Assembly: GCF_000472285.1 (NCBI RefSeq)
Contig: NZ_KI421413.1
Location: forward strand, 382,435-446,434
Source: Desulfuromonas sp. TF
Lineage (GTDB): Bacteria; Desulfobacterota; Desulfuromonadia; Desulfuromonadales; ATBO01
Length of the DNA: 64,000 bases
Direction: 5' to 3'
Both the position numbers and the translations under genes were made by a program. Below, piece after piece: positions 50,834-56,261 of the stretch (within the stretch, counting starts at the first letter, position 1; the number at the start of each line of letters is the position of its first letter). Under the pieces are notes generated by a model that was not told where the DNA came from, did not search any database, and saw only the letters and a program-made list of their open reading frames with translations.

Positions 50834-50934
50834 CCGCCATCGCCCTCAAAGAAACGTATACCAGCGTTCTCCACATTTCCGTTGACAAGGGCGTGCCACG
50901 AGTGACACAATCACGCCGTTTCTAAATCCTATTC

Positions 50935-51032: not shown

Positions 51033-53333
51033 ATGGGTCCTATCAAGACCGTCAAAGAGCGCTGCCGCAAATGTTATTCCTGCGTCCGAAACTGCCCGGT
51101 CAAGGCGATAAAGGTCAAGGAAAACTGGGCGGAGATCATCGATGAGCGCTGCATCGGCTGCGGCAAGTGCGTCAGGGTCTGCTCCCAGCAGGCGAAGGTG
51201 ATCACCGACTGCATCGAAAACACCCGGCGCCTGCTGGCGGGCCGGGAAGAAGTCGTTGCCGTGCTGGGCTGCTCCTTTCCCGCTTTCTTCAACGATATAC
51301 GCCCCGGACAGCTGGTAACCGGACTCAAGCGCCTCGGCTTCTGCGAAGTCCATGAGGGTGCCAGCGGGGTCGAACTCATCGCCGGGGAATATTCCCGCAG
51401 GATCGATCAAACCTCCGCAGCGCCCCTGATCGCCACCCACTGTCCGACGGTCGTCGATCTGATCGAACGGCACTATCCGCAACTGCTCAAAAACCTCATG
51501 GACGTGGTCTCGCCGATGGTGGCCATCGGTCGGCTGATCAAGAGTCGTCGTGGGAAAAAGACCCGTGTAATCTATATCAGCTCCTGCATCGCCGGGAAAT
51601 TCGAAATCGAGGCCGAACCGGTGGAAGGTGCCATTGACGTGGTTCTGACCTACCGTGAGCTGAGCCAGATGCTCAGGGAGAATACACTCGACCTGACGCG
51701 CCTGCCTGATTCTCCCTTTGACGGGGTGCCGCCGCTTGGAGGGCGGCTCTTTCCCATTTCCGGCGGTCCTTTTCAGGCGTTCGGAGTGCGCAACGACTTT
51801 GTCGAACCCGAATCGATCACCACCGAGGGAGAGGAGAATGCCCTGGAGATCATCCGGGACCTGGCGGCGGGACGGATTACTCCCCGCATCGTCGACATCC
51901 GTTTCTGCAACGGCGGCTGCATCGGCGGCCCCGGGAAAAACAACCGTCTCACCTCCTTTTCCAAACGCAACCTTATCCTGGATTATTACAAGAATCAGCA
52001 GATCCCCTATGCCACCGCCCCGCATTACCGGGATGCGATCCCCGTTCCGAACCTGAAACGTCGCTTCGCCAACAAGCATCAGCGGCTGGAGCCGCCCAGC
52101 GGAGAGAGCATCCGCCAGATTCTCCAGGCGACCAACAAGTTCGTGGAGCGGGATGAGCTCAATTGCGACGCCTGCGGCTATCCGACCTGCAGGGAATACG
52201 CCGTAGCCATTTACCAGGGTCTGGCCGAGGCGGAAATGTGCCTCCCCTATTCCCTCAAACGTCTTGAAGAAGATCGTTTCAATCTGGCTCAGAAGTATGA
52301 GCTGGCCCAGCGCGCTCTCGACCAGGAGTTCGGCAACTCCGCCATCATAGGCCGGGACGGCCGGACCCTGGAGGTGCTCAATCTGATCCGGCAGGTCGGT
52401 CCCACCCCCACGACGGTCCTCATCCGGGGTGAAAGCGGCACCGGGAAGGAACTCACTGCGCGCGCCATTCACCTGCAGAGCCACCGCGCCGACAAGCCCC
52501 TGGTGACCGTCAACTGCACGACCCTGAGCGACAGCCTGCTGGAGAGCGAACTCTTCGGGCACAAGAAAGGCGCCTTTACCGGCGCAATCGCCGACAAGAA
52601 GGGGCTCTTCGAAGCGGCTGGCGGCGGCACGATCTTTCTCGACGAGATCGGCGACATCACTCCCAAGGTTCAGGCGGAATTGCTGCGGGTGCTCGACAGC
52701 GGAGAAATCCGCCCGGTAGGCGGAAACTCCTCCATCCGGGTGGATGTCCGCCTCATCGCCGCCACCAACAAGAACCTTGAAGCCGGGGTGAAGGACGGCT
52801 GGTTCCGGGAAGACCTTTTCTATCGACTCAACGTCTTCACCATCACCCTCCCCCCCCTGCGCAACCGGATGGAATCGCTCAAGGACCTTGTCGAGCTCTT
52901 TGTCGACCGGGCCAGCAAGAGGGTTAACAAATCGATCATGGGAATCGAAGACCGCGCCATCCATGCGATGCAGCAGTACCAGTGGCCAGGCAACATCCGC
53001 GAGCTTCAGAATATTATCGAGCGGGCGGCGGTCCTGACACAGGACCGGATCATCCGCCTGGAGAACCTTCCGGTCATCTTTGCCGAACTGGCGTTGCAGG
53101 AGTCCGCCGGGACTGCCGGGGCAAGCGGAAACGATTTCCAGAGCCAGCGGGATAAACATCTGAGTCAGGTAGAGAAGTCCCTGCTGAAGCGCTTTCTCAG
53201 GGAATCCGGTGGCAATGTTTCCGAAGCGGCGAGACAGGCCAAGGTGCCCCGGCGCACCTTTTATCGGCTGCTGACCCGCTACGGCATCAAGGGGGGTGAT
53301 TTCCAGAACGAAATCCTCTCGATCGAAAAGTGA
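51033..53333 (+). CDS. [FeFe]-hydrogenase-like sensor fused to a sigma-54 activator
   Basis: 766 aa, AGGAG 7 nt before the ATG. Domains in order: two [4Fe-4S] ferredoxin motifs (C11, C14, C17, C21; C40, C43, C46, C50); an [FeFe]-hydrogenase large-subunit domain (~70-340) retaining the four H-cluster cubane cysteines as THC137P, SSC185IAGK, and C292NGGC296; a CxxCGxxxxC..C cluster domain of the PF04060 type (C378, C381, C386, C403); the AAA+ domain with GESGTGKELTA, GHKKGAFTGA and GGTIFLDEIGD; and a Fis-type HTH (GNVSEAARQAKVPRRTFYRL). The position of the proton-relay cysteine (TSCCP in active enzymes) is His136, and the lysine of MPCxxKK is changed to Gly, so it is probably a sensor rather than a turnover enzyme. 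It has no receiver or kinase. Likely senses H2 or redox state. Confidence 0.92.
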   Translation: MGPIKTVKERCRKCYSCVRNCPVKAIKVKENWAEIIDERCIGCGKCVRVCSQQAKVITDCIENTRRLLAGREEVVAVLGCSFPAFFNDIRPGQLVTGLKRLGFCEVHEGASGVELIAGEYSRRIDQTSAAPLIATHCPTVVDLIERHYPQLLKNLMDVVSPMVAIGRLIKSRRGKKTRVIYISSCIAGKFEIEAEPVEGAIDVVLTYRELSQMLRENTLDLTRLPDSPFDGVPPLGGRLFPISGGPFQAFGVRNDFVEPESITTEGEENALEIIRDLAAGRITPRIVDIRFCNGGCIGGPGKNNRLTSFSKRNLILDYYKNQQIPYATAPHYRDAIPVPNLKRRFANKHQRLEPPSGESIRQILQATNKFVERDELNCDACGYPTCREYAVAIYQGLAEAEMCLPYSLKRLEEDRFNLAQKYELAQRALDQEFGNSAIIGRDGRTLEVLNLIRQVGPTPTTVLIRGESGTGKELTARAIHLQSHRADKPLVTVNCTTLSDSLLESELFGHKKGAFTGAIADKKGLFEAAGGGTIFLDEIGDITPKVQAELLRVLDSGEIRPVGGNSSIRVDVRLIAATNKNLEAGVKDGWFREDLFYRLNVFTITLPPLRNRMESLKDLVELFVDRASKRVNKSIMGIEDRAIHAMQQYQWPGNIRELQNIIERAAVLTQDRIIRLENLPVIFAELALQESAGTAGASGNDFQSQRDKHLSQVEKSLLKRFLRESGGNVSEAARQAKVPRRTFYRLLTRYGIKGGDFQNEILSIEK

Positions 53334-53391
53334 GCCATCTGAGGCACACTGAGTTCCTTTCGATGTGTCTCTACTGGCACAGCACCAAAAG

Positions 53392-53419: not shown

Positions 53420-53443
53420 CCCTCGGACAAGAACCAGCCCCCA

Positions 53444-53457
53444 TGCCATTTCTGGCA
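53444..53457. promoter_or_regulatory. TGCCA-N4-TGGCA dyad, possible activator site
   Basis: A perfect 5-4-5 inverted repeat (tgcca tttc tggca) about 120-135 bp upstream of the sigma-54 promoter at 53578. The position suits an enhancer; the binding protein is inferred, not shown. Confidence 0.45.
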
Positions 53458-53577
53458 CACTTCTGTCGATGCGCTCCCTCCTTCTGTTTTCGCGTGAGCG
53501 ATACCTGTCTCCAACTTTTGCTGCCGCCTCCGCTGTTTTTCTAATGTTTCCCACTCAGTGACCACGAACTGAAATTT

Positions 53578-53593
53578 TGGCACGCTCGTTGCT
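53578..53593 (+). promoter_or_regulatory. Consensus sigma-54 (-24/-12) promoter
   Basis: TGGCACGCTCGTTGCT matches TGGCAC-N5-TTGCW at every fixed position, including GG and GC at the -24/-12 spacing. The start would be near 53604. No gene starts within 300 bp; an intrinsic terminator follows at 53658-53697. Confidence 0.88.
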
Positions 53594-53603
53594 TCATTAA
53601 AAT

Positions 53604-53697
53604 CCCATGTTGGGGAAAACAGCCGTTCCAACTCAAAGCGGAATCCTGCCCCCTTTGCGCCGTTCCGGGATCTCTCTCCCCCGGGCGGCGTTTTTTT
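53604..53697 (+). ncRNA. Candidate sigma-54-dependent small RNA (~94 nt)
   Basis: The stretch from the predicted start of the -24/-12 promoter to the end of a strong terminator is about 94 nt and contains no credible ORF. It can form a 5' hairpin (ccca / tgggg), has two copies of gccgttcc (53622-53629 and 53659-53666), and ends in the terminator stem with seven Ts. It lies between the hydrogenase-domain activator and ptsP. An alternative is an attenuated leader of ptsP, whose start is about 220 bp further on. Confidence 0.55.
53658..53697 (+). terminator. Intrinsic terminator after the sigma-54 promoter
   Basis: cgccg / cggcg and ccggg / cccgg, with a 2/1-nt internal loop, around a 10-nt loop, followed by seven Ts (53691-53697). 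It is 325 bp past the regulator's stop, so it more likely ends the transcript starting at 53604. Confidence 0.85.
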
Positions 53698-53918: not shown

Positions 53919-56261
53919 ATGACCCCAAGATCCAGAGAACAGCTCGGCATCACCACCCTCGAGGATATCAGCGCCCTCATCCTTCAGTCGCACGATCTGG
54001 ATGAGACTCTGGACAATATCGTGGATCTGGTCGCCAGACGGATGCGCACCGAAGTGTGCTCCATCTATCTTCTGGAGGAGGACCAGGAGACGCTGCGGCT
54101 GCGCGCCACAAAAGGCCTCTCCCGCAAGGCTGTCGGTAAGGTTACACTGCGCATCGGCGAAGGCCTCACCGGCCTGGCGGTGGAAGAGCGGCGCGTCGTG
54201 TCCATCCAGGAACCGCAGAGCCATCCACGCTACCGCTACTTCAAAGAAACCCGAGAAGAGCGTTTTCACTCCTTCCTCGGCATCCCCCTGCTCGACCGCA
54301 AAAAACCCCTTGGAGTCATCGTCATTCAGACCAAGGAAACCCGGCAGTTCGGGGCCGAGGAGATCAGCGCCCTTTCGACAATCGCCTTCCAGATTGCATC
54401 CATCGTCATAAATGCCCGCCTCCTCGATTCCATCCGGCAAAAAGAGGAAGAGAGCAACCGATTCGCCCGGGAGTTGGAGAAAACCAGACAGAGCCTGATC
54501 GACCGTCGGCAACCATCGACCGGCACCCGGGAGATGGTCCTGCGCGGCACCGTCGCCTATCCCGGTCTGGTCTCCGGTCCGGCGCACGTCCTGGATGAGC
54601 GCCTCGGGTTCGCCGATATCCTCCAGGAGGGGATGGTTCACATAGAGGAGGAACTGGAGCGCCTGGAACAGGCCTTGGAGAAAACCCGGATTCAGACTCT
54701 CTTTCTGGAAAAAAGGGTGGCCGAGCGATTGACTCAGGAAGATGCCGCCATCTTCCACACGCACCTTATGATCCTGGAAGACCGCAGTTTTCTGGACAAG
54801 CTGCGGCGAGAAATCGAGGACGGCCACAGTGCTCCGTATGCTCTGGAGAAGATCGTCGGCGGGTACATCGAGGCCTTCCAGAAGATGGAAGATCCTTATC
54901 TTCGGGAACGGGCTGCGGATATGGAAGACATCGGGCGGCGTCTGTTTGCGAACCTGACGGGTCGTGAGAACCAGGTGCTGCTTCTCAAGTCCCCCGGCAT
55001 TCTGGTGGCCCGCACGATTCTGCCGTCAGATATGGCGGCCCTCGACCATGAACAGCTCCGCGGCATCGTCACAGAGGCCGGGGAGAAGAACTCCCATGCT
55101 GTCATCATGGCCAAATCGCTGGGCATCCCTGCCCTGGTCGGAGTCCGCGGAGCCCTCAAGGGCATCACTCCCGAAGAAAAGATCATTCTGGACGCCAATT
55201 CAGGCTACCTGTACGTCAACCCTCCACCGCATGTCGTCGAAGAATACCGCCGCCTGGAGGAGGACTGCAGCCGGGAGCTGCACCGCCTCGAGGAGTTCCG
55301 CGACCTCCCCGCCGAGACCAGCGACGGTAAACGGATCACGCTGCGGGCCAACGTCGGACTGGTGAGCGATGTCAATGTGGCTCTGCGCAACGGCGCCGAA
55401 GGGGTGGGACTCTATCGCACCGAGTTCCCCTACATGGCCCGAGGCGACTTTCCCGACCGCGACGATCAGTACCAGCTCTACCGCAAGGTGATCGAAGGCT
55501 TCGGCGGACAACCGGTGGCTATCCGCACCCTGGACATCGGCGGCGACAAGGCCCTTCCCTACTTCAGCCCGCCCCCGGAGGAAAACCCCTTCATGGGTTG
55601 GCGTTCCGTCAGGGTGTCCCTGGATAACCGGGACATCTTCCGCACCCAGATCGAGGCCATCCTCATGGCCGGCCTGCACGGCAAGGTCAAGCTCCTCTTT
55701 CCGATGATCTCCGGACTCGATGAGCTTCGCTCGTGCCTGGAAGTCGTCGGCGAGGCCCGGGAGACTCTCCGCAGCGAGGGGATCCCCTTCACCGACGAGA
55801 TCCCCATCGGGGTCATGATCGAGGTCCCCGCCGCCGTGCGCCTTGCGCCGAAGCTGGCCCTCATGGTCGACTTCTTCGCCCTGGGGACCAACGACCTGAT
55901 CCAGTACATGCTCGCCGCGGATCGCAACAATCCGCTGGTGAACAAATATTACGACCCGCTGCACCCGGCCGTCCTCCAGGCGCTGGCTGAGGTCATTGAA
56001 GTGGCCCGGAAACAGGGGAAGGGGCTCAGCCTGTGCGGCGAGATGGCTTCGGACCCGCTGAATTTCCTGCTTCTGGTAGGAATGGGAATCACCGAGTTTT
56101 CCATGCCCGCCCCATTCATCCCCCGCACCAAGGCCATGCTGCGTGACATCCCCTCCGCTGTCGCGCGCCGGGCCGCCCGCGAGGTGCTGACCATGGGCGA
56201 CAGCGCCCAGATCCGGACCTACCTTGTAAAGGTTCTCGGCGGGATTGAATCCTCCCGCTGA
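53919..56261 (+). CDS. ptsP: Nitrogen-PTS enzyme I (PEP-protein phosphotransferase PtsP)
   Basis: 780 aa. An N-terminal GAF domain (~5-165, e.g. RRMRTEVCSIYLLEEDQETL) precedes the PTS enzyme I part: PEP-utilising N-domain with GTVAYPGLVSGPAHVL, the phosphohistidine loop EKNSHAVIMAKSLGIPALVG, and the PEP-binding TIM barrel with VGLYRTEFPYMAR, DIGGDKALPYF and LCGEMASDP containing the catalytic Cys. It phosphorylates NPr and senses nitrogen status in other proteobacteria. No npr or ptsN gene is adjacent. The start follows a weak GGAAA. Confidence 0.94.
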   Translation: MTPRSREQLGITTLEDISALILQSHDLDETLDNIVDLVARRMRTEVCSIYLLEEDQETLRLRATKGLSRKAVGKVTLRIGEGLTGLAVEERRVVSIQEPQSHPRYRYFKETREERFHSFLGIPLLDRKKPLGVIVIQTKETRQFGAEEISALSTIAFQIASIVINARLLDSIRQKEEESNRFARELEKTRQSLIDRRQPSTGTREMVLRGTVAYPGLVSGPAHVLDERLGFADILQEGMVHIEEELERLEQALEKTRIQTLFLEKRVAERLTQEDAAIFHTHLMILEDRSFLDKLRREIEDGHSAPYALEKIVGGYIEAFQKMEDPYLRERAADMEDIGRRLFANLTGRENQVLLLKSPGILVARTILPSDMAALDHEQLRGIVTEAGEKNSHAVIMAKSLGIPALVGVRGALKGITPEEKIILDANSGYLYVNPPPHVVEEYRRLEEDCSRELHRLEEFRDLPAETSDGKRITLRANVGLVSDVNVALRNGAEGVGLYRTEFPYMARGDFPDRDDQYQLYRKVIEGFGGQPVAIRTLDIGGDKALPYFSPPPEENPFMGWRSVRVSLDNRDIFRTQIEAILMAGLHGKVKLLFPMISGLDELRSCLEVVGEARETLRSEGIPFTDEIPIGVMIEVPAAVRLAPKLALMVDFFALGTNDLIQYMLAADRNNPLVNKYYDPLHPAVLQALAEVIEVARKQGKGLSLCGEMASDPLNFLLLVGMGITEFSMPAPFIPRTKAMLRDIPSAVARRAAREVLTMGDSAQIRTYLVKVLGGIESSR

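Follow-up and report, generated by a model that had tools for sequence, protein, structure and literature searches.

What does a consensus sigma-54 promoter transcribe when no gene stands close behind it? The question is raised by a locus in the genome of Desulfuromonas sp. TF, where a 64-kb stretch (64,000 nt, hereafter the window) contains the site TGGCACGCTCGTTGCT (TGGCACG-N4-TTGCT), the sole zero-mismatch match to TGGCACN5TTGCW in the whole window. A sequence-only reading had taken this perfect -24/-12 promoter, the terminator after it and the lack of a nearby gene as signs of a small RNA of about 94 nt, and each of these points was borne out: the closest gene downstream is ptsP, which begins beyond a gap of ~220 bp after the terminator, and a start placed ~12 nt past the -12 C on the basis of promoter geometry predicts a 94-nt transcript ending at the T tract (Table 1). 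The terminator P3 consists of the stem GCGCCGU/CCGGG, the 10-nt loop AUCUCUCUCC, the returning arms CCCGG/GCGGCGU and a T7 tail; with more than 8 nt in the loop, it escaped a simple terminator scan. The GCCGTTCC repeat noted in the same reading is present in the RNA (53622-53629 and 53659-53666), but it is private to this genome (1/81 homologues). Single-sequence folding of the window RNA is unremarkable, with a z-score of only -1.55, and the case for the RNA is therefore one of conservation.

Table 1. Features of the sRNA locus and its surroundings, in coordinates of the window.
Feature	Position	Strand	Basis
Predicted activator dyad CGTGCCACGAGTGACACA, 5' of the activator gene	50892..50909	+	dyad scan
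Sigma-54 activator: 2x[4Fe-4S] ferredoxin, Fe_hyd_lg_C, FeS, Sigma54_activat, Fis-type HTH	51033..53333	+	Pfam
Predicted activator dyad 1, TGAGCCATCTGAGGCACA, which overlaps the stop codon of the activator gene	53331..53348	+	dyad scan
Predicted activator dyad 2, TGTGTCTCTACTGGCACA, perfect site	53364..53381	+	dyad scan
Predicted activator dyad 3, CATGCCATTTCTGGCACA	53442..53459	+	dyad scan
Sigma-54 -24/-12 promoter	53578..53593	+	motif scan
Predicted sRNA	53604..53697	+	covariance model R1 match, 96.5 bits; start (~53604) from promoter geometry, end at the T tract
Closing stem P1, 5' arm GGGG	53612..53615	+	fold and covariation
Closing stem P1, 3' arm CCCC	53649..53652	+	fold and covariation
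Intrinsic terminator P3 with T7 tail	53657..53697	+	fold; covariation at pairs 3 and 4 of the inner stem
Near-invariant terminator loop, proposed seed (anti-Shine-Dalgarno)	53670..53679	+	homologue alignment
ptsP (GAF and PEP-utilising enzyme), neighbour outside the RNA unit	53919..56261	+	Pfam

The RNA family, its stems, promoter and dyads and its co-occurrence with the activator were all computed here. A covariance-model search of the order, with model R1 used as a mainly sequence-based finder, showed that 87 of the 136 genomes examined carry a single copy each, and a class-wide sample yielded no family member outside the order; the named relatives are Desulfuromonadales. A loop-pattern match in genome G047 was rejected, as the surrounding region lacks the rest of the RNA. 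Among 58 relatives, 41 possess the activator, and the same anatomy of dyads, -24/-12 promoter and terminator was found 3' of it in all 30 first loci and in 8 of 11 further loci; in these, the T tract ends ~98–133 nt after the -12 element. The remaining three loci have a divergent activator (44-46% identity) directly adjoining ptsP. In 81 distinct homologues, the promoter matches 9–12 of the 12 consensus positions. Promoter and terminator, whose conservation in relatives had been in question, are thus both conserved, as is the length (~94–133 nt). Rfam 15 holds no covariance-model match to the sRNA, either at gathering or at E<=1, a plasmid search with the intergenic region found no match, and a search of a literature collection found no sRNA of this kind for Geobacter or its relatives; the family-level DNA search covered one genome, the window's own. 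Judged by its sequence, the locus encodes a conserved and previously unreported family of predicted sRNAs in many mud-dwelling anaerobes. Each member forms a short non-coding unit that has its own intrinsic terminator and does not depend on the gene 3' of it, and the RNA is presumably made.

Covariation was counted in the 81 distinct sequences using anchors independent of pairing and compared with 2000 shuffles, with kinship ignored. Pair 3 of the terminator P3 is formed in 74 of 81 sequences versus 60 in shuffles, and pair 4 in 68 of 81 versus 44; the fourth pair of the closing stem P1, which is A-U in 44 sequences and G-C in 25, is formed in 70 of 81 versus 53. The observed values were reached in 0/2000 shuffles for each of these pairs. 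Both stems show compensatory change, exemplified by CGCCGUCAAGG/CCUUGACGGCG and AAGGGAU/AUCCCUU, the latter being one of the P1 variants alongside AAGGGAG/CUCCCUU and GGGGC/GCCCC. The 10-nt terminator loop reads ACCUCUCUCC in 39 of 81 sequences and has the window's version in 11, and most loops other than ACCUCUCUCC differ in the first two bases only. Pairing seeds typically show up in this way, as a conserved single-stranded loop flanked by stems that vary.

The activator with a hydrogenase-type sensor that had been placed just upstream of the promoter was confirmed by its Pfam domains; its stop codon lies at 53331-53333. The TGCCA-N4-TGGCA dyad was likewise found, at 53444-53457, within the longer 18-bp dyad 3, and dyads 1 and 2 as well as the site before the activator gene had been overlooked. 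When at most one mismatch was allowed in the 330 bp preceding the promoter, 76 TGTGYC-N6-GRCACA dyads were detected (0.08 in shuffles), and these predicted upstream activator sites are conserved in 38 of 38 loci. In many species, the first dyad and the stop codon of the activator gene overlap. A site like CGTGCCACGAGTGACACA is found 5' of the activator in 25 of 30 relatives, making it likely that the activator regulates its own gene through this dyad. The window's genome contains two perfect dyads only, dyad 2 and one upstream of leuB (C7:183720); the latter lacks a sigma-54 promoter and was put down to chance.

Across the 136 genomes, 81 have both the sRNA and the activator, 6 have the sRNA only, 6 have only a divergent activator and 43 have neither (Fisher 2e-22, kinship ignored); a close activator is accompanied by the sRNA in 81 of 81 genomes, and the sRNA is missing from the 6 with the divergent form. 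In the loci L075-L079 (G024, G036, G031, G040 and G007) and L080 (G010), the sRNA persists, flanked by opp transporter genes and ptsP, although the activator has gone from its place. The six genomes with the sRNA only have no activator above the search threshold, and another activator can therefore presumably serve the promoter. One dyad remains in L075 and one in L076, and the dyads have been lost in L077-L079; from this loss together with the activator we infer that the dyads are binding sites of the adjacent activator, which probably switches the sRNA on. Palindromes of the type TGGTCNNACCA stand upstream of the sRNA in L075-L078, where control may have passed to another regulator. A Geobacteraceae MAG (L295:5200-5900) has the activator (62% identity) and a dyad followed by a small ribbon-helix-helix-like gene, with no sRNA there.

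The near-invariant loop ACCUCUCUCC is complementary to GGAGAGAG Shine-Dalgarno sites, and the RNA exposes a C/U-rich motif that can, at the level of sequence, pair with ribosome-binding sites of its candidate target genes. A scan of three genomes for GGAGAGAG-N2-9-ATG gave 94 matches versus 21 for the pattern read backwards. The site lies ahead of the citrate synthase start codon in each of the three (L330, L270 and L346), and is also found before malate dehydrogenase mdh (L326), class I fumarase (L342), succinyl-CoA:acetate CoA-transferase (L356), a NuoL-like subunit and NrfA. In one subgroup of [NiFe]-hydrogenases, GGAGAGAG directly precedes the start of the large subunit in 15 of 22 orthologues, and several others have GGAGAGA there; ~45%-identical hydrogenases possess an ordinary AGGAGGA Shine-Dalgarno, likewise conserved. 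The genome G106 (91% complete), with no sRNA or activator detected, still has the hydrogenase GGAGAGAG site. A scan of 38 genomes with the 9-mer GGAGAGAGG returned about twice the control number and few recurrent genes; the recurrent candidates emerged from following up the hydrogenase and from scanning with the 8-mer. Whole-RNA duplex energies were set aside, since they do not separate intermolecular pairing from the opening of stems. A further candidate target is a CcoG/NapH-like ferredoxin membrane protein, whose start is preceded by GGAGAGAG in two families (L211 and L363; G018 and G012). In G012, another sigma-54 response-regulator gene is immediately followed by the [NiFe]-hydrogenase operon (L225:1-1238), in the order large subunit, maturation-protease-like gene, Tat-signal small subunit. 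Our best hypothesis, for the targets as for the sign of regulation, is that the loop represses translation of citric-acid-cycle and hydrogen-using enzymes. The candidates were picked after the fact, and a purine-rich Shine-Dalgarno may merely mark well-expressed genes; shared ancestry also conserves such sites, as with AGGAGGA in the other hydrogenases.

Taken together, we assign a probability of roughly 0.6 to a stand-alone, trans-acting sRNA that is switched by the activator and whose loop blocks the Shine-Dalgarno sequences of citric-acid-cycle, respiratory and hydrogenase mRNAs. The activator would be a one-component sensor, with Fe-S clusters in its hydrogenase-like domain joined to a sigma-54 AAA+ and HTH module, and would act from two or three TGTGYC-N6-GRCACA dyads ~80-250 bp upstream to open the -24/-12 promoter. 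The resulting ~94-nt RNA would fold into the closing stem, a variable hairpin and the terminator, leaving the near-invariant 10-nt loop CCUCUCUCC exposed. Pairing of this loop with the GGAGAGAG Shine-Dalgarno would block translation of citrate synthase and, in the same way, of further mRNAs of the citric-acid cycle, of respiration and, in genomes that have one, of the [NiFe]-hydrogenase, so that acetate oxidation would be lowered once the sensor is triggered. More tentatively, and at somewhat less than even odds, an iron-sulphur sensor derived from a hydrogenase but without H2 chemistry would directly drive a single dedicated sRNA, through which the Desulfuromonadales would chiefly restrain the citric-acid cycle and [NiFe]-hydrogenase at the post-transcriptional level, an RNA counterpart of the transcription control exerted by HgtR in Geobacter.

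Sigma-54 activators drive sRNAs in the LuxO-Qrr, CbrB-CrcZ, NtrC-NrsZ and GlrR-GlmY systems. The present locus resembles these in its -24/-12 promoter, upstream activator sites and intrinsic terminator, and luxO/qrr1 also in the activator gene adjoining its RNA; LuxO and its kin are two-component regulators, whereas a one-component iron-sulphur/hydrogenase-like sensor is found here. We saw no homology to LuxO-Qrr, CbrB-CrcZ, RoxS/RsaE or HgtR. The RoxS/RsaE sRNA of Bacillus and Staphylococcus, which is induced by a redox/NO-sensing system and has central-metabolism and TCA-cycle targets, carries an unpaired, C-rich motif able to base-pair with Shine-Dalgarno sequences (PMC4409812). It shares with our family the C-rich anti-Shine-Dalgarno motif, the redox link and the TCA targets (here candidates), but belongs to another phylum, is controlled by ResDE/SrrAB and has several C-rich regions as opposed to one terminator loop. 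In Geobacter sulfurreducens, H2 induces HgtR, a repressor of citrate synthase, and acetate oxidation falls (PMC7894505), which gives the physiology proposed here a precedent; HgtR acts as a repressor protein rather than an sRNA and would be the physiological counterpart of the control proposed here. Post-transcriptional control is almost uncharted in the Desulfuromonadales, metal- and sulphur-reducing bacteria that matter for anaerobic acetate oxidation and in electrode communities. The analysis provides a defined sRNA family with its activator, predicted binding sites and a testable target list, by which throttling of the citric-acid cycle in this order would become directly testable; a hydrogenase fold seems to have been turned into a redox sensor that controls an RNA.

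Other interpretations of the RNA were weighed against this scenario. An activator-controlled sRNA might have other targets, either a different set of mRNAs or an RNA-binding protein that it titrates, in agreement with the occurrence of GGAGAGAG before many unrelated genes (RadC, ParA, MoaC, transporters) and with the absence from the window's own genome of the [NiFe]-hydrogenase subgroup bearing the site. We consider this rather unlikely given the recurrence of citrate synthase and the presence of four distinct citric-acid-cycle-related enzymes among ~42 plausible matches versus ~0.16 expected (Poisson 2e-5, post hoc, assuming 14 such genes per ~3,700 in a category chosen after the fact). A 5' leader acting as an attenuator for ptsP, the outcome that would have undone the sequence-only proposal, is suggested by the position of ptsP as the next gene in most loci. 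It is contradicted by six loci (L017, L018, L020, L029, L034 and L036) that retain the sRNA and have yebC, a DedA gene or others in place of ptsP; the wide gap before ptsP in the window also speaks against it, no conserved alternative anti-terminator fold was seen in the family, and we hold such a leader to be very improbable. Hardly any weight goes to an mRNA for a small protein: an ATG frame of ~31 codons runs through the RNA in the window and one of at least 20 codons is found in 27 of 81 homologues, whereas 46 of 81 have no ATG frame of at least 8 codons and the stems covary.

The signal was weighed in the same manner. An H2-responsive switch, in which the sensor binds H2 via a complete H-cluster, draws on the homology of the sensor domain to [FeFe] hydrogenases and on the four [4Fe-4S]H ligand cysteines (C137, C185, C292 and C296), which are invariant in 31 of 31 proteins. 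A histidine replaces the proton-transfer cysteine of the hydrogenase domain; the residue roles are presumed to be those of the clostridial enzyme CpI. HydF is required for assembly of the di-iron portion of the H-cluster. Among 42 genomes with the RNA, 1 has a HydF above the curated cut-off, versus 8 of 14 without the RNA (Fisher 2e-5), and the window's own complete genome has no hit over the cut-off. Its absence from 41 of 42 RNA-bearing relatives points to a sensor that probably carries [4Fe-4S] clusters only and reads the redox state or an Fe-S-reactive signal. This genomic setting differs from that of TmHydS and TamHydS, group C putative sensory [FeFe] hydrogenases, which also have a PAS domain where the present protein has a sigma-54 AAA+ and HTH output. 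The earlier suggestion that the sensor controls the RNA is thus strongly supported with regard to the activator, by conservation, covariation, dyads and co-occurrence, but weakened with regard to H2 by the distribution of HydF: a [4Fe-4S] redox signal appears likelier, H2 itself is unlikely, and an H2 switch with a complete H-cluster is improbable. The divergent activator (44-46% identity) of L040, L041 and L042 (G044, G052 and G003), which may possibly still carry an H-cluster, abuts ptsP directly, without an sRNA; these genomes do contain HydF.
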